In this document: positions 24,384 through 49,518 of the stretch, piece by piece
Layout: every line of letters starts with the position of its first letter
Position numbering within the stretch: position 1 is the first letter of the stretch
Source of the DNA: an uncultured Hyphomicrobiales bacterium
Lineage (GTDB): Bacteria > Pseudomonadota > Alphaproteobacteria > Rhizobiales > Beijerinckiaceae
Direction of reading: 5' to 3'
DNA: 64,000 bases
Assembly (NCBI GenBank): GCA_903847605.1
Contig: CAINED010000014.1
Span: 1-64,000 of the forward strand
Translations under genes and position numbers: made by a program
The notes under the pieces: model-generated
What the model saw: the letters and a program-made list of their open reading frames with translations, nothing else
Database searches by the model: none
Told to the model about the DNA's origin: nothing

Positions 24384-24396
24384 CGCTTTTCTCCCG

Positions 24397-25371: not shown

Positions 25372-25427
25372 ATGCTTGGCCTCCAATGTCTGCATTCGAT
25401 CTTAGCGCCTGGCGGCTACTTCTGTCA

Positions 25428-28036: not shown

Positions 28037-28043
28037 GGAGAGA

Positions 28044-29012: not shown

Positions 29013-29045
29013 TTTCCCCTCCATCGACTTCCCCTCCTTGAAAAG

Positions 29046-29801: not shown

Positions 29802-29919
29802 GACTTCCTCCCGCTCACCCCGATTTCTAGGGCAGGGAGGACCGTTTGCCAAATCCGGAAAGCGCGTGTTAGCGTTTGAACAGGAGCAGGTTCAACAAGT
29901 CTTGCCCGGGGAGGATTCG

Positions 29920-31543: not shown

Positions 31544-32854
31544 ATGTATGCCTTTATCGGCTTCTCGACGTTCCTCCTTGTCCTTCTGGTCCTCTTTGCT
31601 GTCCGGACTCCGGTCGGCATCGCCCTCGCCATGGTGGCTCTGTTCGGCACCGCGTCGCTGGTGTCGACGGCCTCAGTGGGGCAGGTCGCGGCCATCGCCT
31701 ATTCGGTCTCGAGCAATCCGATCATCGTCGTTGTGCCGTTGTTCGTGTTGATGGGCGAAATCCTGTCCTCGGCGCAGATCGGCGCGAACCTGTTCCGTGC
31801 CGCGGAAATCTGGTTCCGCCGGATTCCCGGCGCGCTGGCAGTAGCGACCATCTGGGCCTGCGCCATATTCGGTTCGGTCTGCGGCTCGAGCCCGGTGACT
31901 GCGACGACCATTGGCTCCATGGCGATCCCGGAAATGTTGCGGCGCGGCTACAACATGTCTCTGGCGCTGGGGGCGACAGCCGCGGGCGGCACGCTTGGCA
32001 TTCTCATTCCGCCTTCGATCATCATGGTGGTCTATGGCGTCATTACGGATACGTAGATTGGCCATCTTTTTATCGGTGGCGTGGTTCCCGGCATTTTGCT
32101 TGCGACATTGTTGAGCTTGACTGTCGTCATCGCCGTGAAGCGCAATCCCGACTATGCGCCGGCGATCAAGGAGGTGCCGACCCGCGAAGAACGGCGCAGC
32201 GCGATGATCGGCGTTTTGCCTGTACTGAGTCTTGCGGCCTTCGTGATCCTGTCGATCTATACAGGCGCTGCTACGCCGACCGAAGCGAGCGGCGTCGGCG
32301 CTGCGGGCGCCATCGTCATCGCCTGGGCGATGGGCCGCATGAAACTGCAGGTCATGATGCAGAGCCTCGACCGCACCGTGCGGACGACTGCGATGTTCAT
32401 GCTGCTTTTGGTCGGCGGGCTTTTCAGTTCGTTTCTTCTGGCGCGGCTCGGCATACCACAGGCGATGTCCGACCTTTTGACCAGCCTGCCGCTGCCGACA
32501 TGGGGAATCATGGTCGTGATCAACTTGATCCTGCTGATCCTCGGCATGTTCATGGATCCCGGCAGTATAATCGTCATCGTTATTCCCATCTTTATCAAGA
32601 CGATCATAAACCTCGGCTACGATCCCGTCTGGTTCGGCATCATCGTCACCATCCAGTCGGAGATTGCCGCCATCACGCCGCCGGTGGGGTTCAACCTGTT
32701 CATCCTCAAGAACATCACGCCCGGCGCCGATATGAGGATTATCTCGAAGGGCGCGGTGATATTCGTCGTGCCCATGCTGCTATGCATTGCGATCCTCACG
32801 GCCTTTCCGCAGATCGTGACCTTCCTGCCGAGCATGATACTCTCGGTCAAATAG
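31544..32854 (+). pseudogene. dctM: TRAP transporter large permease DctM, interrupted by an amber codon
   Basis: Two same-frame stretches, 31,544-32,053 (170 residues) and 32,057-32,854 (266 codons including the stop), read together as one normal-length DctM of about 436 residues. They are separated only by a TAG at 32,054-32,056: GVITDT-stop-IGHLFIGG. In DctM proteins this place usually reads T-S-I-G, so a single TCG-to-TAG change explains the stop. Motifs on both sides are intact (GSSPVTATTIGSMAIPEM; ITPPVGFNLFILKN). It may be an inactivating mutation, a sequence error, or suppressed in the cell. A GTG at 32,081 could restart translation, but a half DctM should not transport. Confidence 0.85.
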
Positions 32855-32910: not shown

Positions 32911-33933
32911 ATGCGGATTGCATTTGCGGGAGTGATAGCGATTGCCCTGACGGGCGCAGCCGTTGCGGCCGAAAGCGTGAAGGTCGGCTACACGCGCACC
33001 GCGACCGACATTGCGCTCTATGTCGCGGACAAGCGCGGTTACTTCAAGGCCGAGGGGCTCGACGTCTCCCTTATCAATATGCAGTCTGCCGCTGTGATGA
33101 TCGTGCCGATGTCGTCGGGCGATATAGACGTGATGGCGGGCTCGGCCTCGGCCGGTCTCTATAACGCCATCACGCGCGGCCTCGACATACGTCTCGTCGC
33201 CAGCAAGGTGACGACGCCAAAGGGCTACACGAGCCAGACGCTGATCGTGCGCAAGGACCTGTTCGACTCCGGCAAGATCAAATCGGTTGCCGATCTCAAG
33301 GGTCAGAAGATTGCGAATTCCGGCACGGGTACGGCAGCGCTCGGCACGATGCAGCGGATGCTGAAAACGGGTGGTCTGACGCTGAAAGACATCGACATGG
33401 TGGCGCTCGCCTTCCCGCAGATGCGCACGGCGCTCGAGAACGGCGCTATCGTCGCAGCGCTGCCGGCCGAGCCCGTCACCACACAGACCGTCAATGCCGG
33501 TGTTGCGGTAAAACTGATCAAGGACGACGAAGCCTATCCCGGGCACGAGATTGCATCCTTCATGTATTCGAGCAAGCTTCTGAAGGAGCGGCGCGAGGTC
33601 GGCCTCAAATTCATGCGCGCACTCATTCGCGGCGCGCGCGACCACAATGACGGGCTCGACGACAAAGGCATGTTTTCAGGGCCAAAGGGCGATGCGATCA
33701 TCGCCATCCTCAACGAATATACGCCCGTGAAGGATCCGAATTTCTTCAAGACATTCGCGCTCGCCTACTGCGATCCGGATGGCGCAATATCCGTCGATAG
33801 CCTGCGCGAGGATCTCGAACTCTTCAGGGAGCTTGGTTTGATCCAGGGCGCGGCAAGCGTCGAAAAACTCGTCGACGACTCGCTTAGGCAGCAGGTGGTG
33901 AAGGAACTTGGGCCGTACAAGAAAGCGAATTGA
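32911..33933 (+). CDS. NMT1/SsuA-like periplasmic substrate-binding protein
   Basis: The 340-residue protein (ATG 32,911, GGAGG 6 bases upstream) has a signal peptide (MRIAFAGVIAIALTGAAVAA) and an ABC-type NMT1-like fold: YTRTATDIALYVADKRGYFK, GLDIRLVAS and LKGQKIANSGTGTAALGTMQ. It probably binds an aromatic or sulfonate-type ligand. No ABC permease or ATPase lies nearby. It follows dctM by 56 bases, so it could be co-transcribed with the TRAP genes or replace a lost ABC system. Confidence 0.85.
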   Translation: MRIAFAGVIAIALTGAAVAAESVKVGYTRTATDIALYVADKRGYFKAEGLDVSLINMQSAAVMIVPMSSGDIDVMAGSASAGLYNAITRGLDIRLVASKVTTPKGYTSQTLIVRKDLFDSGKIKSVADLKGQKIANSGTGTAALGTMQRMLKTGGLTLKDIDMVALAFPQMRTALENGAIVAALPAEPVTTQTVNAGVAVKLIKDDEAYPGHEIASFMYSSKLLKERREVGLKFMRALIRGARDHNDGLDDKGMFSGPKGDAIIAILNEYTPVKDPNFFKTFALAYCDPDGAISVDSLREDLELFRELGLIQGAASVEKLVDDSLRQQVVKELGPYKKAN

Positions 33934-33940
33934 CTGCTGC

Positions 33941-34921
33941 TTAAGCGCGTACGCTCGCCAGCAGCGCGAAGGCGTCGATGACGGACTGCGGATCGGCGAT
34001 GCCTTTTCCCGCGATATCGTGCGCGGAGCCGTGGCCAACGCTTGAAAAAACCACGGGTGCGCCAATCGTTACGGCTGACGCGACACGCGGGCTGATCAGC
34101 TTGACTGGCACATGCCCCTGATCGTGATACATGGCGACATAGGCGTCGTGCTTGCGATTGGCGAGCAGCACGTCCGCGCCAATGGGACCATCCGCGCCGA
34201 TGCCTTCGGCCTTGACCATTGCGACAGCGGGCTCCGTGACTCGCTGATCGTCGTCGCCGAATAGGCCGTTTTCGCCCGCATGGGGATTGATGCCGAAGAC
34301 GCCGATTTTCGGTTGTGAGATGCCCAAACGCTTCAGCGTATCGTCCAGCGCCCTGATGCCATCGGCGACTAGGTCGGGCGTGAGGCGCGCAATCGCCTGA
34401 TGCAGCGGCTCGTGCAGCGTAACATGCGCGATGCGCAAGCCCGCGCCGGAAAGCATCATGAAAACCTTGTCGCGCGGCGTCTGCGTGAGATCGGCGATCA
34501 GCGGCGGATAGCCTGAAAATTCGATGCCGGCCTGATGGACCGCTGTCTCGTTCTGCGGACAGCCGACGATGGCTGCACAATGGCCGCTGCGCACGAGGTC
34601 CACGCATGAGCTGACATAAGCGATGGTCGCGCGTCCCGCCGCCGCGCAAATGCGGCCGGGTGAAAAGTCTTCGCGGGGCAGGGAGGGAACATCGCAGATG
34701 GCCATTTCGCGGTCCGCATCCGCCTGTTCGAAATCGGCAAGCCGTTTCTGGATGCCGAGCGATGCGCGGTAATGCTCGATCACATAGCGATCGCCGACCA
34801 GCACGGCCTGCGCGGGACTTGCGGAATTGAACCCAGCTGCCGCCTTGATGGCGATTTCCGGGCCGATCCCGTTCGCATCGCCGATGGAGATGGCGATGCG
34901 CGGCTTTTTGGTCGCGCTCAT
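33941..34921 (-). CDS. PdxA-family dehydrogenase, TphB-like dihydrodiol dehydrogenase
   Basis: The 326-residue protein from ATG 34,921 has GDANGIGPE (14-22) and the metal-binding histidines of the PdxA family at His166 (RIAHVTLHE), His214 (INPHAGE) and His266 (YHDQGH). PdxA of vitamin B6 synthesis oxidises 4-phosphohydroxythreonine, while TphB, a family member, oxidises and decarboxylates the dihydrodiol formed from terephthalate. The segment ETAVHQAGIEFSGYPPLIAD and its place among aromatic-degradation genes match the TphB type as I recall it. It is the last gene of operon B, 5 bases after the TTT receptor stop. A biosynthetic role cannot be excluded. Confidence 0.82.
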   Translation of the reverse strand: MSATKKPRIAISIGDANGIGPEIAIKAAAGFNSASPAQAVLVGDRYVIEHYRASLGIQKRLADFEQADADREMAICDVPSLPREDFSPGRICAAAGRATIAYVSSCVDLVRSGHCAAIVGCPQNETAVHQAGIEFSGYPPLIADLTQTPRDKVFMMLSGAGLRIAHVTLHEPLHQAIARLTPDLVADGIRALDDTLKRLGISQPKIGVFGINPHAGENGLFGDDDQRVTEPAVAMVKAEGIGADGPIGADVLLANRKHDAYVAMYHDQGHVPVKLISPRVASAVTIGAPVVFSSVGHGSAHDIAGKGIADPQSVIDAFALLASVRA

Positions 34922-34926
34922 TGAAG

Positions 34927-35904
34927 TCAGTTGCCCTCGATCTTCACATTGGCGCGCTTGATGACCTCGCTCCACAGCTTGCGTTCGCCTGCCATGAATT
35001 GCGCCGTTTCCTCGGGCGTGCCGCCGATGGGCGTTGCTTCCTGCGCCAGATATCTTTCGCGGATCGAAGACTGCTGCAGCGCTTCGGCAATATCGGCGCT
35101 GATCTTCTGCGTGATCGCCTTGGGCGTGCCCGGAGGCGCGACGACGCCGAACCAGGCTGTCGCGACGAAGCCGGGATAGCCGGCCTCGATCATCGTCGGC
35201 ACATCCGAAATTTTCGTCGAGCGCTGCCGCGACGCGACAGCGAGAATGCGGATATTTCCGCCCTGGTGTTGCGGCAGGGATGAGGCGATATTGTCGAAGA
35301 ACACATCTACATGGCCGGCGCCCAGATCCGTCAGCGCCGGTGCTGTGCCGCGATAGGGCACGTGATTGAACTTCACGCCGGCAGCGGCCTGGAACATTTC
35401 GAATGTCAGATGTGAGGTCGAGCCATTGCCTTGCGAGGCGACGCTGACCTTGCCTTCATTCGCCTTGGCATGCGCCACGAATTCAGCAACCGTCTTGACG
35501 CCGAGCTTGTTGCTGACCGCCATCACGTTCGGCGTCGAAGCGAGAATGCTGATCGGTTCGAACTTCTGCGGTTCGAATTGCAGCTTCGAATAGAGGTTTT
35601 CGTTCACGACGAGCGGCGGCGGCGGCGAGGAAAGCAGCGTGTAGCCATCGGGCGCTGCACGGAAAACTGCGGTCGCCCCGATATTGCCGCCCGCGCCCGT
35701 GCGATTTTCGACGACGATCTGCTGTTTCCATTTTTGCGACAGATATTCGCTGGCGATACGCGGCAGAACGTCGGCAGATCCGCCCGCCGCGAAAGGCACG
35801 ATGATTGTTACGGCGCGGTTGGGAAAGTCGGTCTGCGCTTGCGCCTGTGCCGCAAAGGCCAAAGCCGCAAGAGCAACCCATCCGTACTTTTCGAAATTCT
35901 TCAT
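34927..35904 (-). CDS. Tripartite tricarboxylate transporter (Bug/TctC) receptor 3
   Basis: The 325-residue protein has a signal peptide ending AQAQAQ and Bug motifs FPNRAVTIIVPFAAGGSADV, VENRTGAGGNIG, DGYTLLSSPPPP, and FNHVPYRGTAPALTDLGAGH. TphC, the terephthalate receptor of Comamonas, is a member of this family, and this gene neighbours a TphB-like dehydrogenase and a gentisate-dioxygenase-like gene. Its ligand is therefore probably an aromatic carboxylate. It is 10 bases after the cupin gene stop, inside operon B. No TctA/TctB is in the window. Confidence 0.92.
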   Translation of the reverse strand: MKNFEKYGWVALAALAFAAQAQAQTDFPNRAVTIIVPFAAGGSADVLPRIASEYLSQKWKQQIVVENRTGAGGNIGATAVFRAAPDGYTLLSSPPPPLVVNENLYSKLQFEPQKFEPISILASTPNVMAVSNKLGVKTVAEFVAHAKANEGKVSVASQGNGSTSHLTFEMFQAAAGVKFNHVPYRGTAPALTDLGAGHVDVFFDNIASSLPQHQGGNIRILAVASRQRSTKISDVPTMIEAGYPGFVATAWFGVVAPPGTPKAITQKISADIAEALQQSSIRERYLAQEATPIGGTPEETAQFMAGERKLWSEVIKRANVKIEGN

Positions 35905-35914
35905 CTTCGCCTCT

Positions 35915-37126
35915 TTACGCGACGATCTGTTCGACCTTGCCGCTCTCGTTCATGCCCTGCGCGCGATATTGGCCGATCTTCTCGATCAGCGGCCGATCGC
36001 TCATCGTGTAGAGGATCGCGTCTTTCGATCCCGTATTGACGTGCCGGCGCCACAGAAAATTCGGAACAACGAATATATCGTTCTCTTCCCAGTCGTAAGT
36101 GCGGCCCGCGACCTCGGTCTGCCCGCGTCCGTGCATGCAGACATAAACAGTGCTGCACGTTTCGCGCTTGAAGCGGGTTTCCTCGCCGGGCTTGAGCAAC
36201 TGCGCGCCATAGCCGAGCGTCGTGAACAGCGCCCCGCCAGTGACTGGATTACGCAGGTCAATTGGCGTGCCCTCGTAGGGATCGCGCACATCGTTCTGCA
36301 TCGCCGTCAGCGCATTCTGGATGTCGACGCCCTTGAAATGGAAGAACGGCGTCTCGGCATGTCCGACGCCGCGCTGATGCGAGGACATGCGCGGCACGAG
36401 GCCGCCATGAGCATAGAGCCGCTGCGAGTGACCGCGGGGAATCTTTTCGCTCTGTGCGCGCTGGTTGCCTTCAAGGCCGGGCGCTTCCTCGTCGAGCCAG
36501 ATGAGATCGAGCACTTCGAGCAGCGGCCAGTCCAGTGTGTCGATCCACATGACCGGTTCCTTGCCGTCATTGCCGTGGTCGTGCCACGTGCCGTTCGGCG
36601 TCAGCATCACGTCGCCGCGCATGGCGTCGCAGCGCTCGCCCTCGACATTCGTGTAGCCGCCAAATTCCGAGAGGATCGTGCGCGTCGCATTGGGCGAATG
36701 AAGATGCGCGCGCGCCACGTCGCCGGGATTGTAGATCGAGACGGCGCAACGGATCGCCGCCGCCACCTGCAGACGCCCCCCGAGGCCGGGATTGGTCAGC
36801 AGGAATTGCTGGCGGTCGGCGAATTCCGTCGGCGGAATGTCGGAATTCTTGGCGACATCGGCGATCTTGAGGAGGTAGGGCGAGATTTCCTTCCAGCGCC
36901 AGCGGTGCGGCAGAGCCTTCATCTGCCCGCCGGCCACGCGGCCCTGCGCCATCCGCCCGGCTTCCTCGACGCTCGTCGGCTTGAACCATGCCTTTTGCGC
37001 GGGCGCATTGGCCTGCGTGCGCAGCCAGATGTTGTATTGCCCAGCTTCTGCATTCAGCGCTTCCATCGCGGCGCGGGCGTCGATCTTGCCCGGCGTCGTC
37101 GGCGCTGTGCTCATCGTGTCGGTCAT
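35915..37126 (-). CDS. Gentisate 1,2-dioxygenase-like bicupin
   Basis: The 403-residue protein is a bicupin of the gentisate/salicylate/1-hydroxy-2-naphthoate 1,2-dioxygenase family. The N-terminal cupin has the iron-binding histidines in AHLHSPNATR and NGTWHDHGND, and WIDTLDWPLLEVLD. The C-terminal cupin reads ETCSTVYVCMHGRGQTEV. These Fe(II) enzymes cleave the ring between the hydroxyl-bearing carbon and the neighbouring carboxyl-bearing carbon; gentisate gives maleylpyruvate. The protein is longer than most gentisate dioxygenases (about 340-380), so it may act on a related hydroxyaromatic acid. It is in the middle of operon B. Confidence 0.88.
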   Translation of the reverse strand: MTDTMSTAPTTPGKIDARAAMEALNAEAGQYNIWLRTQANAPAQKAWFKPTSVEEAGRMAQGRVAGGQMKALPHRWRWKEISPYLLKIADVAKNSDIPPTEFADRQQFLLTNPGLGGRLQVAAAIRCAVSIYNPGDVARAHLHSPNATRTILSEFGGYTNVEGERCDAMRGDVMLTPNGTWHDHGNDGKEPVMWIDTLDWPLLEVLDLIWLDEEAPGLEGNQRAQSEKIPRGHSQRLYAHGGLVPRMSSHQRGVGHAETPFFHFKGVDIQNALTAMQNDVRDPYEGTPIDLRNPVTGGALFTTLGYGAQLLKPGEETRFKRETCSTVYVCMHGRGQTEVAGRTYDWEENDIFVVPNFLWRRHVNTGSKDAILYTMSDRPLIEKIGQYRAQGMNESGKVEQIVA

Positions 37127-37206
37127 GGGCCGTCTCCTCGAACTGTATTCTCTTAGCCGGATAGCTGCTTGTCTATCGGCTGCCCTGGCCGGCGGGATAC
37201 TTTACA

Positions 37207-37422
37207 TCATTGTGCCGCAATAGGCTTCAACTCGTATACCTCGGCTTCCTGCCGGGCTGCGTCGATATCGCCTCGGCGCAGCGCAAGGCGAACGCGATCA
37301 AGTTTACGAACCTGTTCTTTATCAAGCGCCGGAGCCCAGGGTGAGCCATCTTCGGTCAGAGAGATCTCGACCTTCGCGAGATATTTGCCTTCCTCGATCA
37401 GGTGCATGCTCTTGCCAGTCAT
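37207..37422 (-). CDS. 71-residue protein inside the catabolic operon
   Basis: From ATG 37,422 (GGAGAA 6 bases upstream) the protein reads MTGKSMHLIEEGKYLAKVEI and then SLTEDGSPWAPALDKEQVRK, with a C-terminal helical part LDRVRLALRRGDIDAARQEA. It has no signal or membrane segment. The beta-strand plus helix pattern suggests a small cytoplasmic accessory protein. I recognise no family. It lies between the FAH-family gene (30 bases upstream) and the cupin gene, in the same operon, so it is probably expressed with them. Confidence 0.65.
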   Translation of the reverse strand: MTGKSMHLIEEGKYLAKVEISLTEDGSPWAPALDKEQVRKLDRVRLALRRGDIDAARQEAEVYELKPIAAQ

Positions 37423-37452
37423 GGCGTTCTCCGAACTCGACCGCAATCTGCT

Positions 37453-38313
37453 TCAGGTCGGATTTTCGTCTTCTACCACATTGCGCAACACGCCGACGCC
37501 GGAAACCTCCAGTTCCAGCACATCGCCGGGCTTCAGCCAGACCGGCGGCTTGAGGTTGCCGCCGACGCCCACCGGCGTGCCGGTGGCGATCACGTCGCCG
37601 GCCTCCAGCGGCATGATCGTCGAGACATAGGCGATCAGTTCCTCGTAGGGGCGCATCATATTGGCGGTCGTATCTTTCTGGCGCGTCTCGCCGTTGACGC
37701 GGACCTCGATCGTCATGTCATGAGGATCTGCGATTTCCTCGGCGGTCGAGATCCATGGACCGAAGGAGCCCGAGCGGTAAAAGTTCTTGCCCGATGTGAC
37801 GTTGGCCGTCGTGTGCTTCATCCAGTCGCGCACCGAGCCTTCATTGAAACAGGAATAGCCGAAGATGTGGTCTATTGCGTTCTCGCGTGCGATGCGCCGT
37901 CCGCCCTTGCCGATAACGATGGCGATCTCGCCTTCGTAGTCGAAATGATTGGATTCCGGCGGCCGCAGGATCGGTGAAAGATGCGGCGCATGGGCCGAGG
38001 ATGTCCGCCAGAAGAGAGAGGGATAATTCCAGCTGTAGCCGCCGCCGGGCACTTCGTCGGGGCGCGACTTGTAGTTCACGCCGATGCAGAGGATCGGCTT
38101 GTGCACGGGCAGCATGAATTCGATGTCGCCGATCTTGAAATCGTCGGCAGCGCCTTGCGCCATTCGTGCCGCTTCGCCTTTCAGATCCCGGGTGATGAAC
38201 TCGACCATGTTTGCTGCTCTGCCCTGCAGGCGCGAGCCGAGATCGAATATGCCTTCGCCGCGAAAGATACCGAAACTTTCGCGGCCCTTGTGGCGGTAGC
38301 TGGCAAGTTTCAT
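37453..38313 (-). CDS. Fumarylacetoacetate hydrolase-family protein (fumarylpyruvate-type)
   Basis: The 286-residue protein has the FAH catalytic core: ILCIGVNYKSR, FDYEGEIAIVIGKGGRRI with the metal-binding Glu pair, YSCFNEGSVRDWM, and LEAGDVIATGTPVGVG. FAH-family enzymes use a divalent metal to hydrolyse C-C bonds in fumarylpyruvate, acylpyruvates or 2-hydroxymuconates. Beside a gentisate-type dioxygenase and a GST, a fumarylpyruvate hydrolase role is the simplest reading. It lies 21 bases after the GST stop. Confidence 0.9.
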   Translation of the reverse strand: MKLASYRHKGRESFGIFRGEGIFDLGSRLQGRAANMVEFITRDLKGEAARMAQGAADDFKIGDIEFMLPVHKPILCIGVNYKSRPDEVPGGGYSWNYPSLFWRTSSAHAPHLSPILRPPESNHFDYEGEIAIVIGKGGRRIARENAIDHIFGYSCFNEGSVRDWMKHTTANVTSGKNFYRSGSFGPWISTAEEIADPHDMTIEVRVNGETRQKDTTANMMRPYEELIAYVSTIMPLEAGDVIATGTPVGVGGNLKPPVWLKPGDVLELEVSGVGVLRNVVEDENPT

Positions 38314-38334
38314 GTTTTTTCCCCGACTCGTTTG

Positions 38335-39078
38335 TTATCCGCGCTGTGGGCCGCCGTAGATAAATATCTGGCGCGCCGGTTCCGCATAGGTTCTCCCGAA
38401 CGCCGGCCGTGCCTGCAAGCGATCATACCATTTTCCCACGAACGGGTGTTGTGACCACATATCGTTCATCTTCAGATCGTCGAGCCGGACGATGTTCGGC
38501 ATGACGCAGATGTCGGCTTGGGTCAGCATTTCGCCGCAGATCCACGGACGTCCGTCGGAAAGGGCCTTTTCCATCCGGTCGATCGTTTGCTGCAGCTTTT
38601 CGCGGGCTTCGCTGAGGTCCGCTTCGCTGAAACCGCCGTTCTTCATCTTCAGATAGAAATGCTTGCGAATGGGCCGGCGCGCGGCCTCTGCCTCAAAGGC
38701 GTCGCCATCCTTGAACGTGCGCCGGATGAACGCCTGAAATGACGGCACACGAATGGCTGGCGTCGGAACTTCGTCGATATATTGTCGCCAAGCCCGCATG
38801 GCCGCGAGCGCCTTCGCTGTCTCCGGCCGCAGCGGTTGCCCGGGAAATACATCGTCGAGATACTCAAGGATAACAGATGACTCGACGATGGCGTCGCCGT
38901 CATGGACGAGGGTTGGCACGACGCCGTTTGGATTGAGCTGCAGATATTCCGGCGTGAGATGCTCGTTCTTGCGCAGATCGATTTCGTGTGAGACCCAGTC
39001 GAGCCCCTTCTCGAATAGGGCCATCCGGACTTTCTGGCTGCATGTTGAGCGCGCAGCATGCATGAGAACAAGCGCCAT
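38335..39078 (-). CDS. Glutathione S-transferase, candidate maleylpyruvate isomerase
   Basis: The 247-residue protein has the thioredoxin-like GST N-domain with the catalytic-region motif RSTCSQKVRMALFEKGLD and the glutathione-binding segment LNPNGVVPTLVHDGDAIVES, then an all-helical C-domain. The SxCS pattern resembles zeta-class enzymes, which isomerise maleylpyruvate to fumarylpyruvate; the YLDDVFPGQP segment is shared with other GSTs such as lignin beta-etherases. The neighbourhood supports the isomerase role, but the sequence alone does not decide it. Operon B, 25 bases after the dehydrogenase stop. Confidence 0.82.
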   Translation of the reverse strand: MALVLMHAARSTCSQKVRMALFEKGLDWVSHEIDLRKNEHLTPEYLQLNPNGVVPTLVHDGDAIVESSVILEYLDDVFPGQPLRPETAKALAAMRAWRQYIDEVPTPAIRVPSFQAFIRRTFKDGDAFEAEAARRPIRKHFYLKMKNGGFSEADLSEAREKLQQTIDRMEKALSDGRPWICGEMLTQADICVMPNIVRLDDLKMNDMWSQHPFVGKWYDRLQARPAFGRTYAEPARQIFIYGGPQRG

Positions 39079-39103
39079 CGGTGCTTCCTCGATAAAAAGC
39101 TGT

Positions 39104-40066
39104 TCAGTGTCCGGAGGGGGCGAGCACCCGTACCGGCTTGCCGTCGAGCCAGGCTTCGATGTCCTCGACGCTTTGCGTATAGGTCGTGCGATAATTTTCT
39201 TCCATGACGTAACCGAGATGCGGCGTCAGCAGCGTGTTGGGCGCGCGCATGATCGGATGCGCCGACGGCAGCGGCTCGATGTCGTAAACGTCGAGCGCAG
39301 CGCCGCCGATGCGCCCGGCATTGAGGGCGTCCAGCATGGCCTGCTGATCGACGAGCGCCGCGCGCGCCGTATTCACGAGTAGCGCGGTCTTCTTCATCAA
39401 TCCGATCTCGCGCGCGCCGATCATCCCGTTCGTCTGCGCATTAGCCACGAGATGCAGCGACACCACATCCGATTGCGCCATCACTTCATCGAGGCTGGCC
39501 ATCGTTACGCCCGCAGCCGCCGCTTTTTCCGCTGTCATCGAACGCGACCATGCCAGCACCTTCATGCCGAGCGCGAGGCCGACCTTGGCGACATCGCCGC
39601 CGATCCGTCCGAAGCCGACGATGCCCAAAGTCTTGCCGCGCACGCCGACGCCGACCGTCTGCTGCCAGCGTCCGGCATGAAGGTTGTTCACCTCCTGCGG
39701 AATGTGGCGGAACCAGCCGAGGATCATGCCGACTGTCAGTTCGGCGGTCGGGTAGCCGAGTGTCGCGGTGCCGCATACCGTGACGCCGCGCGCCGCCGCT
39801 GCGTCGATGTCGATCGAATTGTTGCGCATCCCCGAGGTGACGACGAGTTCGAGCTTCGGCAAGGCGGCGAGCAATTCCTTTGTCACCGGCGTGCGCTCGC
39901 GATTGCAGACGATGACATTGGCGTCACTCAGTTCGCCGACGAGTGCGCTGAATTCGCCGATGTAGTGCGACAGCACCTTGATTTCCGCGCGACCTTTCAA
40001 TCTCTCCCAGGGTCCCATCTTCAGGGCGCAGTTTTGATAGTCATCGAGAATGACGACGGATTTCAT
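39104..40066 (-). CDS. D-2-hydroxyacid dehydrogenase
   Basis: The 320-residue protein has the NAD-binding GFGRIGGDVAK (about residues 149-159) and the catalytic Arg (NTARAALVD), Glu (DVYDIEPLP) and His (LTPHLGYV) of the 2-hydroxyacid dehydrogenase family. Such enzymes reduce 2-oxo acids or oxidise D-2-hydroxy acids with NAD(P)H. It could handle a pyruvate-type product of ring cleavage or glyoxylate, but the substrate is unknown. It is the second gene of operon B, 90 bases after the TauD-like gene. Confidence 0.9.
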   Translation of the reverse strand: MKSVVILDDYQNCALKMGPWERLKGRAEIKVLSHYIGEFSALVGELSDANVIVCNRERTPVTKELLAALPKLELVVTSGMRNNSIDIDAAAARGVTVCGTATLGYPTAELTVGMILGWFRHIPQEVNNLHAGRWQQTVGVGVRGKTLGIVGFGRIGGDVAKVGLALGMKVLAWSRSMTAEKAAAAGVTMASLDEVMAQSDVVSLHLVANAQTNGMIGAREIGLMKKTALLVNTARAALVDQQAMLDALNAGRIGGAALDVYDIEPLPSAHPIMRAPNTLLTPHLGYVMEENYRTTYTQSVEDIEAWLDGKPVRVLAPSGH

Positions 40067-40156
40067 GAGGGCTCCCCCAGCTTTGATGGCCGCGCGATTT
40101 TGCCGTTGCTCCGGCGCTTGATCGCCGCTTGCGTCCGCGCTGTCAATGGAGCGGAC

Positions 40157-41152
40157 TCAGGCCGGTTCTGTCGCCAGTTCGACATCGGTATGGGGCACAT
40201 TCGCCGGAAATTTCCGCCAGCCGGGCATGGTGAGCCATGTGCGCAGCAACAGGCGACGCTGGTCAGGCTCGCCGAAATCCTCATAGTCGGTCCGTCCGTG
40301 CAGTGTCACCCGGTTGTTGAGGAACTGGATATCGCCCGGTTCTATGTCCATGGTCATGCAGTAGGGCTTGCTGCCGGCGATGCTTTCCAGAACGTCCATC
40401 GCTTCCCGCTCCGGCCCGCTCAGTGTCATCAAGCCGTCCTCGACCGCCATCTGTATGGGCGCGGGCAAATAGTTGCAGATCACCTCGCCGCCGATGTCTG
40501 CAAATACCGGGCAATAATGTTCGGTCAGGGCGGAGCCGCCCTGCCGGCGGTGTTCGCGCCGGCGGTGACGATAGCCGCGGTAGAGTATGTCGAGCAGGTC
40601 GGGCCGGGTGCGTAGCATCTCGTTATGGATGGCCATCGAACTGGCGATCAGGCTTTCGCCGCCCTTCTTCGCCTTGCGCACGCAAAGCAGGCCGACAATA
40701 TCGACCGGATCCATGTGCATCGGCAGCGGCCCGCCGACATGATAATAGAAGCGCCCGCCGTCCTGCGGGTTCACATCCATCACTTCGGCGATGCCCTTGG
40801 CGCGATGCTCCTGCGGGCCGACGAGACCGAGGTGATGGCCAATCACGAGCAGGGCAAGTTTCAGCTCTTCGACTTTGAATTTCGAAACGTCCATTCCCCG
40901 TACCAGGGCGAGCCCATAGCCCTGCGAGAGAGCGTCTTTTGCAGGAGCGAGTCCCGCGCGCAGTTCCGCAATGTCGATCGCCTCGAAATCGAACGTGTCC
41001 TGATCGAGGCCCTTTGCCCCAGCGTCAGCGACGGCCTTGCCGAGGCGTTCGAGAGCCGTGGCGGGAAGTTCGTAAATCCAGTCGCTGCGCGCTTCCAGGT
41101 CCGCGCCGAGCCAAACCTGCGCACCCCTAACGAGTTGCGGCGATTGATCCAT
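40157..41152 (-). CDS. TauD/TfdA-family 2-oxoglutarate dioxygenase
   Basis: The 331-residue protein has the non-haem iron and 2-oxoglutarate motifs HxD (PMHMDPVD, about residues 165-172) and a distal His with Arg (TLHGRTDYED, then RRLLLRTWL). Family members hydroxylate taurine, aryloxyacids, carnitine precursors or other acids with succinate and carbon dioxide release. Length is above TauD (about 280) because of an N-terminal extension of about 50 residues. It begins operon B, divergent from the ring-hydroxylating oxygenase genes. Its substrate is unknown. Confidence 0.85.
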   Translation of the reverse strand: MDQSPQLVRGAQVWLGADLEARSDWIYELPATALERLGKAVADAGAKGLDQDTFDFEAIDIAELRAGLAPAKDALSQGYGLALVRGMDVSKFKVEELKLALLVIGHHLGLVGPQEHRAKGIAEVMDVNPQDGGRFYYHVGGPLPMHMDPVDIVGLLCVRKAKKGGESLIASSMAIHNEMLRTRPDLLDILYRGYRHRRREHRRQGGSALTEHYCPVFADIGGEVICNYLPAPIQMAVEDGLMTLSGPEREAMDVLESIAGSKPYCMTMDIEPGDIQFLNNRVTLHGRTDYEDFGEPDQRRLLLRTWLTMPGWRKFPANVPHTDVELATEPA

Positions 41153-41361
41153 CCCGGCCTCCCTAGGCTGTTTCGGCGTGTCTTGCTTGGGGGGATGCTA
41201 CAGGAATCTTGACTGTTATCAAAGCGAACACGGGCTTGGTCCGTAGTCTCGGCGCAAATCGAACGAGCGGCCGGCGCAGCTTGACTTGCGCGGGGCTGCA
41301 CCGCACTGAAAAGACCATTGAGGCTGCGCCCATGCGCGCCCGAGGCGAGGAACGCAACGAA

Positions 41362-42612
41362 ATGAACGTAGCGACCGAAGCGAGCCCGATTCTGCCCGCA
41401 TGGCCGGACGGTGGCGTCACGCGCGTGCCCTATTGGATTTTCCAACGCGACGATGTCTATGCGCGCGAACAGGAGCGCGTATTTCAGGGCAAGTCCTGGT
41501 TCTACTTGTGCCTCGAAGCCGACTTGCCGGAAGCCGGCAGCTTTCGCACGACATTCGTAGGCGATACGCCCGTCGTCGTGGTGCGCGACAACGATGGCGA
41601 AATCTGCGCCTTCGAAAACCGCTGCGCGCATCGCGGCGCGCTGCTCTGTCTCGATGAGGACGGCAAGGCAAAGCAAGGGTTCACCTGCGTCTATCACGGC
41701 TGGAGCTACGACCTCAAAGGCAACCTAAACGGGGTCGCCTTCCTCAAGGGTTTGAAGGGGCAGGGCGGCATGCCCTCGACCTTCAAAATGGCGGATCACG
41801 GCCCGCGCAAACTGCGGATCGCGACGATCTTTGGACTGGTATTCGGCACTTTCTCAGATGAAACGCCACCGCTCGACGACTGGCTTGGCGAAACCATCAT
41901 TTCGCGCATCGCTCGCGTGCTTGAGGGACGAAAGCCCGTCGTTCTCGCGCGCTACACGCAAACGCTTCCCAACAACTGGAAGCTTTACATGGAGAATGTG
42001 AAGGACAGCTACCACGCGAGCATTCTCCACCTGTTCTTCACGACCTTCGAACTCAATCGCCTCAACTACAAGGGCGGACTCATCGTCGAAGGCGGTGGCG
42101 GCCATCACGTCAGCTTTAACCAGCTTGATAGGGCCCAGCTCGACAAGGCCTATTCCGACCAGAACCTTCGCTCCGACAGCAATTACAAGCTGAAGGATCC
42201 CTCGATGCTACAGGGGTTCAATGAATTCCCGGATGGCATCACCCTGCAAATCCTCACGGTTTTCCCGACATTCGTTCTGCAGCAGATACAGAACTCCGTT
42301 GCCGTTCGTCAGATCGTCCCGCGCGGCCCCGAACGATCCGACCTCAACTGGACCATCCTCGGCTTCGAGGACGATACGCCGGAGCAGCGCCTCGTACGCG
42401 TAAAGCAGGCCAACCTCGTGGGAGCTGCGGGCTTCATCTCAATGGAGGACGGCTGTGTTGGCGGCTTCGTGCAGCGCGGCGTTGCCGGGGCGCCTCATCT
42501 GCCGTCGGTGCTGGAAATGGGCGGCTCGTCGACGCAATCGAGCGAAAGCCGCGTCAGCGAAGCGGCCATTCGCGGTTTCTGGCAGCAATATCGCGATCTG
42601 ATGGGACTGTGA
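41362..42612 (+). CDS. Rieske ring-hydroxylating oxygenase large subunit, TphA2-like
   Basis: The 416-residue protein from ATG 41,362 (GAGGA 11 bases upstream; an ATG at 41,332 is also possible) carries the Rieske [2Fe-2S] ligands Cys88, His90, Cys109 and His112 and the mononuclear iron ligands Asp215-region, His218 and His223 ([13 protein letters not shown]). The segments [17 protein letters not shown] and [12 protein letters not shown] fit the terephthalate 1,2-dioxygenase (TphA2) and salicylate 5-hydroxylase group. It dihydroxylates or monohydroxylates an aromatic carboxylate. It is divergent from operon B and followed 4 bases later by its small subunit gene. Confidence 0.9.
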
Positions 42613-42616
42613 GCGC

Positions 42617-43099
42617 ATGAGTCAGAAAAGCGATAGCGACATGTTCCACAAGATCGTGCGCGCGCAGGCCGAATATGCCCGCGCCATCGACAACGACAGG
42701 CTCGAAGACTGGCCTGCCTTCTTCGAGGATCCCTGCCTCTACAGGATCACGACAGCGGGCAATTTTGCGAAAGGCTATGAAGCCGGAATCGTATTCGCCA
42801 ATACGCGCGGCATGTTGACGGACCGCATCACGGCGCTGCGCGAAGCCAACATTTTCGAGCGCCATACATATCGCCACATTTCAGGCGCGCCCTGCATTCT
42901 CTCGGAAGATGCGGACGGCGCACGCAGCGAAACGCCCTTCGTGGTCGTGCGTATCATGCGCGACGGCGTGACAGATGTTTTCGCCAGCGGTTGCTATCGC
43001 GATTTGTGGCGGGCGCATGGCGCGCAGGTTAAGCTCGCCGAGCGCATCGTCATCTGCGATTCCTCGCGCATCGACACGCTGCTGGTGATACCGTTGTAA
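42617..43099 (+). CDS. Rieske oxygenase small subunit, TphA3-like
   Basis: The 160-residue protein has the cystatin-like fold of ring-hydroxylating oxygenase beta subunits: AEYARAIDNDRLEDWPAFFE, MLTDRITALREANIFERHTY, and a C-terminal ICDSSRIDTLLVIPL. It stabilises the large subunit and may affect specificity. As I recall TphA3, the MLTDRIxALREANI and CDSxxxDTL segments are shared, so it fits a terephthalate- or salicylate-type enzyme. The reductase component of the oxygenase is not encoded in the window. Convergent with TTT receptor 4, with a hairpin repeat between. Confidence 0.9.
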   Translation: MSQKSDSDMFHKIVRAQAEYARAIDNDRLEDWPAFFEDPCLYRITTAGNFAKGYEAGIVFANTRGMLTDRITALREANIFERHTYRHISGAPCILSEDADGARSETPFVVVRIMRDGVTDVFASGCYRDLWRAHGAQVKLAERIVICDSSRIDTLLVIPL

Positions 43100-43203: not shown

Positions 43204-44172
43204 TCACTTCTCCTGCAGAACATCTGCCAGCAAAACCTTGTATTTCTCGACTTCGCGCAACACGAGCGCGCCGAGAAATGCTGACTCCAGTTCCTCTCCG
43301 CTCGCCGGAACCGAGGAAAGATCGAGCAGGCGCTGTTTCACAGTATCGCTGGCAACCGCTGTGCGCAGTGCGCCATTCAATCGGGCGATGATGGGCGCAG
43401 GCGTGCCCGCCGGTGCAAACAGCGCGTTCCAGCCCTCGGCCTGAAAGCCTGGCGTGCCCGCCTCGATCGACGTCGGCATCCCCGGTACATTCGGAAGCCG
43501 CGCCGTCGATCCCACCGCGAGCCCGATCACCTTGCCCGCGAGGATCGCGCTCGAAACCGATGTCGCGGAATCGCAGGCGCCGTCGATATGCCCTGCGATG
43601 AGATCGTTCAGCGCGGGGGCCGCGCCGCGATAGCTCACGAGATTCACCTCGACGCCGGAGGCGCGAATGAAGCTGCGGCAGATGAGATAATTCGACGAAC
43701 CGACGCCCGCATGGCCGAGGCTCACCTTGCCGGGGTTGGCCTTCGCATAGGCGACAAACTCGGCGAGCGTCTTCGCCGGAAAGCCCGTCTTGATGGCGAG
43801 CACGGGCGCTGTCTTGGCGATCAGGCCGACGGGCGCAAAAGAGTCCGGCGCATATTGCAGGTTTTTCTGCAGGAAATAGGACGCAGCATGCGTGCCGGTA
43901 TTGCCGATGATGAGCGTATAGCCATCCGGCGTCGCCCGCGCCGCGCGCCCAAGCGCGATCGCGCCGCCGGCGCCGCCGACATTCTCGATGACAAAGCGTT
44001 GACCGAGCACGCGTCCTGCCTCGTCCGCCGCAAGACGGGCGATCACGTCCGATGTGCCGCCGGCCGCAAAGGGCACGATCAGGTTGATGGATTTCGAAGG
44101 GTAGGTGTCCTGCGCCTGCGCGGACGCCGTGACCAGGAACGCGCTTGCCAGCGCCAGTTTCCAGCTTTTCAT
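43204..44172 (-). CDS. Tripartite tricarboxylate transporter (Bug/TctC) receptor 4
   Basis: The 322-residue protein has a signal peptide ending ASAQAQ and Bug motifs YPSKSINLIVPFAAGGTSDV, IENVGGAGGAIALG, DGYTLIIGNTGTH, and VNLVSYRGAAPALNDLIAGH. It is a periplasmic receptor for a carboxylated ligand; the neighbouring divergent feruloyl-CoA-type genes suggest a cinnamate-like acid. About 89 bases separate its start from that gene, enough for two promoters. No permease genes are present. Confidence 0.92.
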   Translation of the reverse strand: MKSWKLALASAFLVTASAQAQDTYPSKSINLIVPFAAGGTSDVIARLAADEAGRVLGQRFVIENVGGAGGAIALGRAARATPDGYTLIIGNTGTHAASYFLQKNLQYAPDSFAPVGLIAKTAPVLAIKTGFPAKTLAEFVAYAKANPGKVSLGHAGVGSSNYLICRSFIRASGVEVNLVSYRGAAPALNDLIAGHIDGACDSATSVSSAILAGKVIGLAVGSTARLPNVPGMPTSIEAGTPGFQAEGWNALFAPAGTPAPIIARLNGALRTAVASDTVKQRLLDLSSVPASGEELESAFLGALVLREVEKYKVLLADVLQEK

Positions 44173-44261: not shown

Positions 44262-45092
44262 ATGGCTGACAAGACCTATGAGAATATCAAAATCGTCCGT
44301 GAGGGACCCATAACCTTCCTCACGCTGAACCGTCCCGGCAAGCGCAACGCCATGAGCCCGGCTCTCCATTACGAGATGGAAGAGGCCATGCTCTTCCTCG
44401 CGACCGACAAGGCAACGCGCGTTCTCGTGCTGGCCGGGGAAGGCGAAGCCTGGTGCGCCGGACAGGACCTGAAGCTCTATTTTCGCGAAACGTCCAATAA
44501 TCCAGAGGAGCGTCGCCGTTCCAATGCATCCAGCCATCGCTGGCGCTGGGATCTGATGACGACATTCCCCAAGCCCACCATTGCCATGGTGAACGGTTAC
44601 TGTTTCGGCGCGGCCTTCACCCAGCTTTGCGCCTGCGATTTTGCGATCGCGGCGGAGGACGCAACTTTCGGTCTTTCCGAAGTGAACTGGGGCATTCTGC
44701 CCGGCGGCATCGTCAGCTGGAATCTCACGGACATGATGCTGCCGCGTCACGCGCTCTACTACGCAACGACGGGCGAGCCTTTCGATGGCAAGCGTGCGGT
44801 GGAACTCGGGCTCGTGAACTTTGCCGTGCCGAAAGAGAAATTGCGCGAAGAGACGATGAAGCTGGCCGAAAAGATGCTGAAGCTCAATCCGTCTGTCGTT
44901 CGCTACACGAAGGAAGCGATCCGCGCCGTGCGCGGCATGACGCAGGAAAAAGCACGCGATTACCTCGGCGCCAAGCAGGACTCCCTGCATCGCGCGGACA
45001 AGGAAATCGGCGACAAGGTCGGCATGAAGAAGTTTCTCGACGACAAGTCCTATCGCCCCGGTCTCGGCCCCTATCAGCGCGAAGAAGGCTGA
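44262..45092 (+). CDS. Feruloyl-CoA hydratase/lyase-like crotonase
   Basis: The 276-residue crotonase-fold protein (GGGAGGA before ATG 44,262) has the oxyanion-hole segments AWCAGQDLKLYF and NGYCFGAAF and E140 in GLSEVNWGI, which matches the catalytic Glu of hydroxycinnamoyl-CoA hydratase-lyase. The length equals that enzyme's 276 residues. The C-terminal DDKSYRPGLGPYQRE also fits. It would hydrate and cleave feruloyl- or coumaroyl-CoA to an aromatic aldehyde and acetyl-CoA. The acyl-CoA synthetase gene starts 6 bases after its stop. Confidence 0.86.
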   Translation: MADKTYENIKIVREGPITFLTLNRPGKRNAMSPALHYEMEEAMLFLATDKATRVLVLAGEGEAWCAGQDLKLYFRETSNNPEERRRSNASSHRWRWDLMTTFPKPTIAMVNGYCFGAAFTQLCACDFAIAAEDATFGLSEVNWGILPGGIVSWNLTDMMLPRHALYYATTGEPFDGKRAVELGLVNFAVPKEKLREETMKLAEKMLKLNPSVVRYTKEAIRAVRGMTQEKARDYLGAKQDSLHRADKEIGDKVGMKKFLDDKSYRPGLGPYQREEG

Positions 45093-45098
45093 GACGCG

Positions 45099-47243
45099 AT
45101 GGACAAGGGCAAGTCGATTGCGGCGCTGTTTGCGCCCAATAATGTCGTGCTGGTTGGAGCCTCGGACCGCAACTGGGCGCCGCGCGTATTTCATAATCTG
45201 CAGCGCTTTGGCTATGCGGGCGAAATCTATCTCGTCAATCCCAACCGCAGCGAACTCTGGGGCCGCCGCTGCTACGCATCGCTGGCCGATCTGCCTGCAG
45301 CGCCCGATCATCTCGCGCTCTTTGTTCCCGCAGACCAGTCTCTCGACATTCTCGAAGACGGAGCGGCGCGTGGCGCACGCAGCGCGACTTTTTTCGCCGC
45401 AGGTTTCGGCGAAGGCGGCGATGCAAAAGGGCTGGCGCGCGCGAAACGGCTCAAGAACATTCTGGACCGTACCGGCATTGCAGCCATCGGCCCCAATTGC
45501 ATGGGCCTTGCAGTCGGACGCGCGAAATTCTCCACCATTCCCGACGAGCACCACGCGCCGCTGAAGCCCGGTCCGGTCGCGGCCATCACGCAAAGCGGAA
45601 TGCTGGTGCAGACTGTCGGACGCGGCCTGAACGATGCCGGCCTGCCGCTCGCCTATCTTCTTTCTGCCGGTAACCAGACCGGGTTGACGATTGCGGACTA
45701 TGTCTCGCACCTGGCCGACGACGACGACCTGCGTGTGATCGTCTGCTACATCGAGGCGGTCAGGGATGCGCCGGACTTTCTCGCTGCGGCCAGAAAAGCC
45801 AAAGCGAATGGGAAGACGGTCGTCGTCGCCAAGATCGGAGGTTCCGAGGAGTCGCGCGCTGCGGCGCTGGCGCACACCGGTTCTCTCGCCGGCAGTCTCG
45901 ACGTCTTCGATGCATTCGCGCGCGACGCGGGAATTGTGCGCGTCGATTCTCTTGAAGATATCGTCATGGCCGCCGAATATCTTTCGCGCTCGCAGCGGCC
46001 CAAGGGCAAGCGCGTCGGCTTGATGACGAATTCGGGCGCGTTGCGTTCCCTCACCAGCGAAACGGCGCCGCATTTCGGCATTTCCTTTCCGCCTTTCTCC
46101 GAAGAAACGGCGGCGCGTCTGAAAGAGCTTCATCCGGAAGCGGAAGTCTCAAACCCCTACGACTTCAAGCGCACGCTGCCTTCGGACCTTTACATTAAGC
46201 TGATCGAAACCGTGCATGCAGATCCAAACTGCGACATGGTTCTCCTGACCGAAGAACTGCCGCGCGAAGCGGGCATAGAACGCAAGGTTTCGAATTTCAG
46301 GGCCATCGAGAAATGGCTGGCGGAAGGGCACGCCCGTGAAAAGCCGCTTGCAGTCTTCTCGCCCATCACGCTGAATGAAAATCATTACATGCAGCAGCTT
46401 CGCGAGGAGCTGCCGCACATTCCTTGGCTCCACGACATATCCAAGACATTCCGTACGCTGGCGCGGCTGCCGGACGCGAGCGGGAATGGCAGCGCAGGCG
46501 CGTCCGAAATTCCGGCGAACCGGCGCGCATTGATCGACAAGTGGCGCGCGCATGCAAGAACCCTCGATAAGCCCGTCGCGCTCAACGAGGTCGACTCGAA
46601 ATCCATTCTTGCTGCATATGGCGTCGCGTCCCCCGCTGAAATCATCGTGAAGACTTCCGAAGAAGCGGCTGCCGCAGCTGAAAAACTCGGCTTTCCCGTC
46701 GTTATCAAGGCGGTCAGTGCTGAGATCGCGCACAAGAGCGATGCGGGGCTCGTCAAGCTTGGTATCGCCGACGCCACGCAGGCCCGCAACGCGGCCGATG
46801 AGATGACAAGCACGTGTGCACGGCTTGGCGTGCGGCTCGAAGGCATTCTCGTTGCCCAGCAGGTGAAGGGCGGCATCGAGATGGTGGCCGGAATTCATCG
46901 CGATCCAGAAATGGGTCCGGTCGTGATGGCGGGACTAGGCGGCGTCTGGCTCGAACTCTTCAAGGACGTCGCTTTCGCGCCGCCATGGCTGGATCGCGAC
47001 GCTGCGCTCGAAGCGATTGCAACGACGCGCGCTGCAACTTTGCTTGCGGGCTATCGCGGCGCGCCCGCCGCCGATGCCGCTGCGCTTGCCGATGTCATGG
47101 TTTCGCTCGGCGCATTGTCACGCGAATTCGGTGACATCATGGAATCCGTCGACGTCAATCCCTTGCTGGTCCGGGAGAAGGGCAAGGGCGCCGTCGCGCT
47201 GGACGGGCTTGTCGTGCTGCGGCCGCCAGCCGCGAACGCCTGA
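45099..47243 (+). CDS. ADP-forming-type acyl-CoA synthetase, FerA-like
   Basis: The 714-residue protein is the fused form of the NDP-forming acyl-CoA synthetase family: an N-terminal CoA-binding domain (LVGASDRNWAPRVFHNL), the ligase domain with phosphohistidine His259 (ALAHTGSLAGS), and a C-terminal ATP-grasp domain (LGFPVVIKAVSAEIAHKSD). FerA of Sphingobium, which activates ferulate, belongs to this family. Next to a feruloyl-CoA hydratase/lyase-like gene with a 6-base gap, this is probably the matching CoA ligase. Other family members act on acetate, pimelate or aryl acids. Confidence 0.86.
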   Translation: MDKGKSIAALFAPNNVVLVGASDRNWAPRVFHNLQRFGYAGEIYLVNPNRSELWGRRCYASLADLPAAPDHLALFVPADQSLDILEDGAARGARSATFFAAGFGEGGDAKGLARAKRLKNILDRTGIAAIGPNCMGLAVGRAKFSTIPDEHHAPLKPGPVAAITQSGMLVQTVGRGLNDAGLPLAYLLSAGNQTGLTIADYVSHLADDDDLRVIVCYIEAVRDAPDFLAAARKAKANGKTVVVAKIGGSEESRAAALAHTGSLAGSLDVFDAFARDAGIVRVDSLEDIVMAAEYLSRSQRPKGKRVGLMTNSGALRSLTSETAPHFGISFPPFSEETAARLKELHPEAEVSNPYDFKRTLPSDLYIKLIETVHADPNCDMVLLTEELPREAGIERKVSNFRAIEKWLAEGHAREKPLAVFSPITLNENHYMQQLREELPHIPWLHDISKTFRTLARLPDASGNGSAGASEIPANRRALIDKWRAHARTLDKPVALNEVDSKSILAAYGVASPAEIIVKTSEEAAAAAEKLGFPVVIKAVSAEIAHKSDAGLVKLGIADATQARNAADEMTSTCARLGVRLEGILVAQQVKGGIEMVAGIHRDPEMGPVVMAGLGGVWLELFKDVAFAPPWLDRDAALEAIATTRAATLLAGYRGAPAADAAALADVMVSLGALSREFGDIMESVDVNPLLVREKGKGAVALDGLVVLRPPAANA

Positions 47244-47332
47244 GGATTGCTTCGCGCTTGACAGGCTGATGGCGCGCGCATCCAATCGTAGCAGGCGAAC
47301 TGAAAAACCAACGAAGACGCCGGGAGGACAAC

Positions 47333-49501: not shown

Positions 49502-49518
49502 CTTTTCAGGGGACGCTC

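Follow-up and report, generated by a model that had tools for sequence, protein, structure and literature searches.

We analysed a 64,000-nucleotide stretch of DNA (hereafter, the window) from an uncultured Hyphomicrobiales bacterium of the family Beijerinckiaceae (contig CAINED010000014.1, positions 1 to 64,000 of the forward strand), in which a gene cluster at 33941-43099 had been predicted to join a terephthalate-type ring-hydroxylating oxygenase to a gentisate-type lower pathway. Through open reading frame and Pfam scans, all genes named in this original prediction were confirmed to be present at their coordinates, and 10 of the 10 proteins scanned matched a Pfam family above cut-off. The plus strand carries the genes for the alpha (41362-42612) and beta (42617-43099) subunits of a Rieske oxygenase. 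These are divergent from a minus-strand run that encodes, reading away from the oxygenase, a TauD/TfdA-family dioxygenase (40157-41152), a member of the D-2-hydroxyacid dehydrogenase family (39104-40066), a glutathione S-transferase (GST) family protein (38335-39078), a FAH-superfamily hydrolase/decarboxylase (37453-38313), a bicupin of the gentisate/salicylate class (35915-37126), a TphC-like Bug/TctC receptor (34927-35904), and a PdxA-family dehydrogenase that is possibly TphB (33941-34921). The operon had thus been described correctly as to the genes it named; the hydroxyacid dehydrogenase and TauD genes of the same run had been left out. A promoter scan of the divergent gap returned a single weak sigma-70-like match, which was not used as support.

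The oxygenase appears to be of the terephthalate type, an assignment that is well supported. Its alpha subunit, searched with a query of 417 residues from 41359 (one codon upstream of the ATG), was 67.7% identical at 96% coverage by tblastn, and 65% identical by MAFFT, to a protein of strain RHA1 that we take to be TphA2. Moreover, it scored 575 bits against the solved terephthalate dioxygenase (TPADO) 7q04, compared with 322 bits against the salicylate 5-hydroxylase 7c8z. The account of the TPADO active site in PMC9060491 gives R309, I290, N224, S243, and R390 as substrate contacts, and describes N224, S243, and R390 as peculiar to TPADO among its five characterised homologues. When alpha subunits from loci of this kind were aligned, these five contacts and the iron ligands H210, H215, and D356 were kept in 24 of 24 sequences (22 from the first alignment plus those of L042 and L070; the oxygenase of genome G531 stands outside this count), and all eight were also kept in three tph-like references. 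One open reading frame of L037 (21% identical) that overlaps the true gene in a different frame was left out of this alignment, and seven loci duplicating refetched genomes were omitted from both the oxygenase and the cupin alignments. At the five substrate positions, a control alpha subunit from a gtdA-bearing cluster (L024), which we infer from its neighbouring genes to be a salicylate-5-hydroxylase, carried W, M, M, R, and M. The beta subunit gene (PF00866) lies directly 3′ of the alpha gene, and its relatives were present in 23 of 27 loci. A salicylate 5-hydroxylase (NagGH) identity for the oxygenase was rejected on the two bit scores and on the presence of the second-carboxylate residues of TPADO; the predicted TphA2A3-like oxygenase was accordingly borne out.

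The receptor at 34927-35904 also appears to be of the terephthalate type, which is again well supported. Its best PDB matches, 8hka (342 bits) and 7ndr (TphC, 329 bits), are both terephthalate-binding proteins, and the next match fell to 222 bits, in agreement with the receptor type that had been claimed. Read from the PDB-match alignments, the residues at TphC positions P86, Q150, T155, and T/A242 are P, Q, T, and A, and this PQTA signature is a binding-site variant on record in the receptor survey of PMC8556258. According to the binding data given there, TphC of Comamonas sp. E6 has affinities of 0.36-1.9 µM for terephthalate, 2-hydroxyterephthalate, and 2,5-dihydroxyterephthalate.

The cupin, which had been called gentisate-dioxygenase-like, was placed among the gentisate/salicylate bicupins by profile, PDB, and fold matches. 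It shares the bicupin class III fold, the iron histidines, and the equivalents of Arg83, Arg127, His162, and Asp174 with the salicylate dioxygenase (SDO) of Pseudaminobacter salicylatoxidans and with the gentisate dioxygenases 3bu7 and 2d40. Specifically, it keeps the equivalents of SDO His119, His121, His160, Arg83, Arg127, His162, Trp172, and Asp174; the three-histidine iron site and the Arg83 and Arg127 equivalents are those of a class III ring-cleaving dioxygenase. In the SDO work described in PMC11264262, activity was abolished by changes at Arg83 or Arg127, and PMC10306065 describes Trp104 and Asp174 of SDO as recognising the 5-substituent. The gentisate-type class of the claim therefore stood. 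However, identity to SDO and the gentisate dioxygenases was only about 31-34%, with Arg at position 104, Ala at 106, and Ser at 108, and the cupin scored 203 bits against cut-offs of 442 for gentisate 1,2-dioxygenase (TIGR02272) and 650 for the 5-aminosalicylate enzyme. Position 104 was Arg in all 32 clade sequences that cover it (30 of the first alignment plus L037 and L044; the rows of L019 and L021 lack coverage there), including Arg126 of the window, whereas it was Tyr, Phe, or Trp in five of five reference dioxygenases and Tyr and Phe in the distant relatives L051 and L052. An ordinary gentisate dioxygenase was excluded by the score of 203 against 442 bits and by the Arg at this specificity position. 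An AlphaFold prediction for the cupin, built from 12 sequences (mean pLDDT 65), confirmed the fold alone, being too poor to place Arg126. The kept Arg83/Arg127/His162 site together with Arg at position 104 leads us to favour, as a guess at the substrate, an aromatic carboxylate that bears an ortho-hydroxyl and one further negative group; the cupin represents a new clade whose substrate is probably a dicarboxylate.

The pairing of this cupin with the oxygenase is conserved across one genus, more than expected by chance. When genomes were searched with a profile of 12 cupins at an E-value of 1e-80, the cupin was found in 27 of the 397 sampled from the window's family, and all 27 were among the 46 listed genomes of its genus. 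In a sample of the class, it was found in 4 of 385 genomes, the window's own included, and the two copies read from genome G168, one of the other three, lack the Arg. Of 51 genomes of the genus, 25 gave an oxygenase match of at least 767 bits, and the next score down was 518; this line was set after the gap had been seen, and 32 of the 51 genomes match at an E-value of 1e-100 when weaker paralogues are counted. All 25 oxygenase-bearing genomes of the genus contain the cupin (Fisher's exact test, 5e-11, over the 46 genomes common to both samples and uncorrected for kinship). In the two cupin-bearing genomes that lack the oxygenase, G715 and G764, the cupin lies on short contigs, and that of G764 (L009) ends in a 40-residue oxygenase fragment. 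Moreover, in 23 of the 27 genomes the cupin and oxygenase genes share a contig and point away from each other, 170 to 4798 bases apart, with 0 or 1 gene between them in 21 genomes and four in the window and its relative G665; the exceptions are G710, where they lie on separate contigs, and G715, G764, and G531, where contigs end. Across 22 loci, pairwise distances between cupins tracked those between oxygenases (correlation 0.88, a value reached in 0 of 2000 permutations). For both proteins, the nearest neighbour came from the same locus type in 22 of 22 cases. The predicted mix of such an oxygenase with a gentisate-class cupin is thus real and conserved.

Two locus types were distinguished. 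Type A (15 of 27, including the window) has the PdxA-like gene, with a TphC-like receptor gene in 14 as well, and FAH in 11 and a second FAH type (c23) in three more. The contents of type B (12 of 27) vary, with a hydroxyacid dehydrogenase in 7 (one partial), an amidohydrolase in 6, UbiD in 7 (one partial), and a QuiC-like gene in 6. In 11 of the 12 type B genomes, a PdxA homologue scoring 468 bits or more was found on a contig other than that of the oxygenase or cupin, and G547 had none above 206 bits. The QuiC-like gene, encoding a protein that resembles 3-dehydroshikimate dehydratase, neighbours the oxygenase in its six type B loci (e.g. L040, 15783-17696) and scored 696 bits against a cut-off of 1200. 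The product of QuiC is protocatechuate, and this gene ties another likely source of that compound to the cluster. The type B amidohydrolase was nearest to gamma-resorcylate decarboxylase, and among solved relatives it scored 94 bits against hydroxybenzoate decarboxylases compared with 54 against ACMSD. This family (c6) occurs in 13 of the 27 loci across both types (the G710 copy being on another contig), and no close copy was found in the window's genome (best 30-35%); it was therefore rejected as a required step.

The role of the PdxA-like protein was harder to settle. It is 53, 51, and 49% identical to the PdxA gene products encoded beside the tph-like oxygenases of RHA1, P. veronii, and P. 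aurescens, respectively, and it scored 270.8 bits, below the cut-off of 290.35 for the vitamin-B6 PdxA equivalog. Its best PDB match, 8zhy (277 bits), was deposited as 4-hydroxythreonine-4-phosphate dehydrogenase, with TphB (4aty) at 273 bits. The 569 bits of the window's own protein in the genome search arise by construction, since this sequence sits in the search profile, as is also true of profiles A1 and A2. Vitamin B6 synthesis as the sole role of the gene is unlikely, given that the genome holds another PdxA homologue and that the gene lies in the cluster. A firm TphB identity was nevertheless dropped, because unlinked copies are as near to the protein as the references are and tree support is modest. 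The data are compatible with the predicted action as TphB and do not prove it.

Comamonas sp. E6, with its tph operon (tphR C A2 A3 B A1), has the same TphC-, TphA2-, TphA3-, and TphB-like genes and the same oxygenase residues, as do RHA1, P. veronii G2, and P. aurescens TC1 in operons of a similar kind; the tph names used here for the latter three follow in part from gene layout, their records carrying general product names. In contrast to those operons, the window locus has its TphB- and TphC-like genes on the strand opposite to the oxygenase, adds the cupin, FAH, GST, hydroxyacid dehydrogenase, and TauD genes, and has no detected tphA1 or tphR. Relatives of the RHA1 reductase (tphA1) and regulator (tphR) were found in 0 of the 27 loci (E-value 1e-15, 30% identity), some of which are cut by contig ends. 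Because these two genes were not found in it, we call the locus tph-like rather than a canonical tph operon. Within the window's genome, the reductase closest to that of RHA1 (40% identical) lies on another contig. Genome G710 has an IclR-family protein related (32%) to the RHA1 regulator; its gene is near a PdxA homologue on a contig other than those with the oxygenase (L069). By its domains, the gene with a cupin domain close to the P. veronii operon encodes an AraC-family regulator. Alternative tph layouts are also described for the alpha-proteobacterial tph-like operons of Bradyrhizobium ivorense and Roseomonas deserti, and section 13 of PMC8556258 mentions no cupin or FAH for them. Full-text literature searches, assessed by titles and with most subscription papers outside their scope, found no report of a terephthalate-type oxygenase paired with a cupin.

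In the nagGH/nagIKL pathway from salicylate to gentisate, too, the genes of a Rieske oxygenase with alpha and beta subunits adjoin those for FAH, GST, and a cupin of the gentisate class. However, the window's oxygenase is of the terephthalate type, and its GST and FAH are superfamily-level matches that are not conserved in the locus. A gentisate lower pathway would call for a maleylpyruvate isomerase and a fumarylpyruvate hydrolase. Both GST and FAH fell below every listed NCBIfam cut-off, and GST, like the TauD-family gene, was found in 2 of 27 loci; the entire run from TauD through the dehydrogenase, GST, and FAH to the cupin is confined to the window and G665. The D-2-hydroxyacid dehydrogenase was found in 10 of 27 loci. 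Together with the cupin's score, these results do not bear out the gentisate-type lower pathway that had been claimed, and such a pathway is not shown by the gene content. FAH (PF01557, 214 bits) has as its best PDB match 6iym, named 5-oxopent-3-ene-1,2,5-tricarboxylate decarboxylase, within a broad superfamily. Opening of 2-hydroxyterephthalate between C1 and C2 would give 5-carboxy-2-oxoheptadienedioate, presumably one double bond away from the substrate of an HpaG-type FAH decarboxylase; the 6iym match is thus named for a tricarboxylate close to the product predicted for the cupin.

From the gene families, key residues, and co-occurrence read in the DNA, we infer every reaction that follows, the TphB role and, above all, the cupin substrate. 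We favour a cluster of the tph type whose substrate is terephthalate or a closely related para-dicarboxylate, with a TphB-like step to protocatechuate, plus a cupin branch that opens a hydroxylated terephthalate, and assign this reading a probability of 0.38. The receptor at 34927-35904 would bind the diacid, and the oxygenase at 41362-43099 would dihydroxylate it with electrons supplied via a reductase encoded elsewhere. The PdxA-like protein, acting as TphB, would then form protocatechuate, which is the least certain of the tph steps, and protocatechuate would be opened by LigAB-type enzymes of the genome. In the second branch, the cupin would cleave 2-hydroxy- or 2,5-dihydroxyterephthalate between the two ring carbons that bear the carboxyl and the hydroxyl group, with Arg126 holding the extra carboxylate, and FAH (here perhaps with GST) would process the tricarboxylic ring-opened product. 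TPADO, as described in PMC9060491, needs no dehydrogenase to turn 2-hydroxy- and 2-aminoterephthalate into protocatechuate; given this acceptance and the binding by E6 TphC noted above, hydroxyterephthalates can enter the pathway. Tentatively, and at less than even odds, we suggest that the cupin could be the founding member of a new family of class III ring-cleaving dioxygenases whose substrates are aromatic dicarboxylates (hydroxylated terephthalates). Such an enzyme would bypass protocatechuate, and its invariant Arg at the specificity position would form a second carboxylate site matching the oxygenase pocket.

Several observations weigh against this preferred scheme. The 12 type B loci have no relative of TphB or TphC near the oxygenase. 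Ten PdxA homologues in other neighbourhoods or on other contigs of the genus are 54-56% identical to the window's protein, compared with 48-53% for the tph-linked references, and the grouping of that protein (with those of L008, L019, and L033) with three tph-linked references has a tree support of only 0.79. In the cupin, Gln108 of SDO is replaced by Ser and wild-type Gly106 by Ala, the pocket differs more widely, and the low confidence of the model makes the placing of Arg126 a prediction. FAH occurs in 11 of the 27 loci. Members of the cupin clade lie without an adjoining oxygenase in L014, L017, L018, L048, L049, and L050, although the genome of L048 has the oxygenase on another contig. 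Finally, the scheme presupposes a source of hydroxyterephthalate, and the product of TPADO with TphB is protocatechuate.

The alternative that survives best, and which we nonetheless regard as unlikely, is that two separate pathways lie side by side, the tph-like genes leading to protocatechuate and the cupin, GST, and FAH degrading an unrelated ortho-hydroxy aromatic acid such as gentisate, a substituted salicylate, or 4-hydroxyisophthalate. GST and FAH are alike in kind to the partners of gentisate pathways, and elsewhere the cupin clade has other neighbours and no adjoining oxygenase (L014, L017, L018, L021, and L049), which hint at possible other cupin substrates. Such neighbours include luciferase-like monooxygenases and alpha/beta hydrolases (L017 and L021), an NtaA-like monooxygenase (L049), an arylmalonate decarboxylase family gene above cut-off (L014), and several FAH genes (L018). 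Unrelated pathways would not, however, readily account for the presence of the cupin in every oxygenase-bearing genome of the genus, the divergent pair in most loci, or the correlated distances.

Rather improbable, in our judgement, is that the growth substrate is 2-hydroxyterephthalate or its amino analogue, which the oxygenase would convert to protocatechuate without TphB, the cupin and (where present) the amidohydrolase being alternative first steps. The dehydrogenase-independent turnover described for TPADO (PMC9060491) would permit this, as would the lack of TphB beside the oxygenase in type B loci, with amidohydrolase in 6 and UbiD in 7 of them; moreover, the weakness of the TphB assignment counts somewhat for this alternative and against the preferred scheme. 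Yet the PdxA-like gene carried by 15 of the 27 loci, the window's included, would be superfluous for 2-hydroxyterephthalate, 11 of the 12 type B genomes have a PdxA homologue on another contig, and the window's genome has no close amidohydrolase copy.

A need for the cupin in opening protocatechuate was also considered. The window's genome has two LigA/LigB-like pairs (LigA assigned by eye), which could open protocatechuate, so this step would not need the cupin. LigB-class matches above cut-off were found in 12 of 12 cupin-bearing genomes (11 at 250 bits or more), in a family wider than protocatechuate enzymes, and PcaH was above cut-off in 1 of the 12 (that of L018). Given these LigB-class matches, the notion that the cupin is needed for want of other protocatechuate enzymes is not supported. 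Least probable of all is that the cupin itself opens protocatechuate, as a protocatechuate dioxygenase of a new kind, and so makes the terephthalate pathway of the cluster complete: the oxygenase and TphB would supply protocatechuate, the six QuiC-like genes would add to it, and Arg126 could bind its carboxylate, but the residues for an ortho-hydroxy carboxylate (Arg83, Arg127, and His162, though not Gln108) are kept, the Lig-type enzymes are present, and we know of no cupin that acts on protocatechuate.

Terephthalate is the aromatic monomer of the plastic polyethylene terephthalate, and its known aerobic pathways run, to our knowledge, through protocatechuate. That the cupin accompanies a terephthalate-type dioxygenase in all 25 genomes of a single genus that have this oxygenase suggests a second enzyme for opening the ring, and the single residue Arg126 renders the prediction for the cupin directly testable. 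If true, it would provide a new specificity for the breakdown of a plastic monomer, together with a sequence mark by which more such clusters could be found.

With respect to the remaining genes, the solved relatives of the TauD-family protein at an E-value of 0.01 were limited to FrbJ (5eqn), the closest, and 7n7v. The cluster is flanked by a second Bug/TctC receptor gene (43204-44172, minus strand; PF03401, 185 bits), of which an 81% identical relative adjoins the beta subunit gene in L020, and by a gene for an NMT1-like ABC substrate-binding protein (32911-33933, plus strand; PF09084) that faces the cluster. Relatives of the latter that are at least 45% identical occur in 15 of the 27 loci (the window counted), with three copies in L008. 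At 31544-32854, a gene for a TRAP transporter DctM subunit is split by an in-frame TAG (32054-32056) into two pieces in one frame, and its relatives in L008 and L013 are single open frames of about 435 residues. After the oxygenase, 44262-50625 contains genes for an enoyl-CoA hydratase, two tandem NDP-forming acyl-CoA synthetase-like proteins (a 74% relative of which also lies near the oxygenase in L020), and an ornithine cyclodeaminase-like protein. On the minus strand at 23409-29852 lies a catabolic-looking run with GST-like, DHDPS-family, and molybdopterin oxidoreductase large subunit genes, to which inspection by eye adds genes for an SDR, a Bug receptor, and a [2Fe-2S] small subunit. Overall, the window's genome has eleven LigB-class matches and six further Rieske alpha matches (contigs C13, C21, C39, C50, and C80), and is probably that of a versatile degrader of aromatic compounds.

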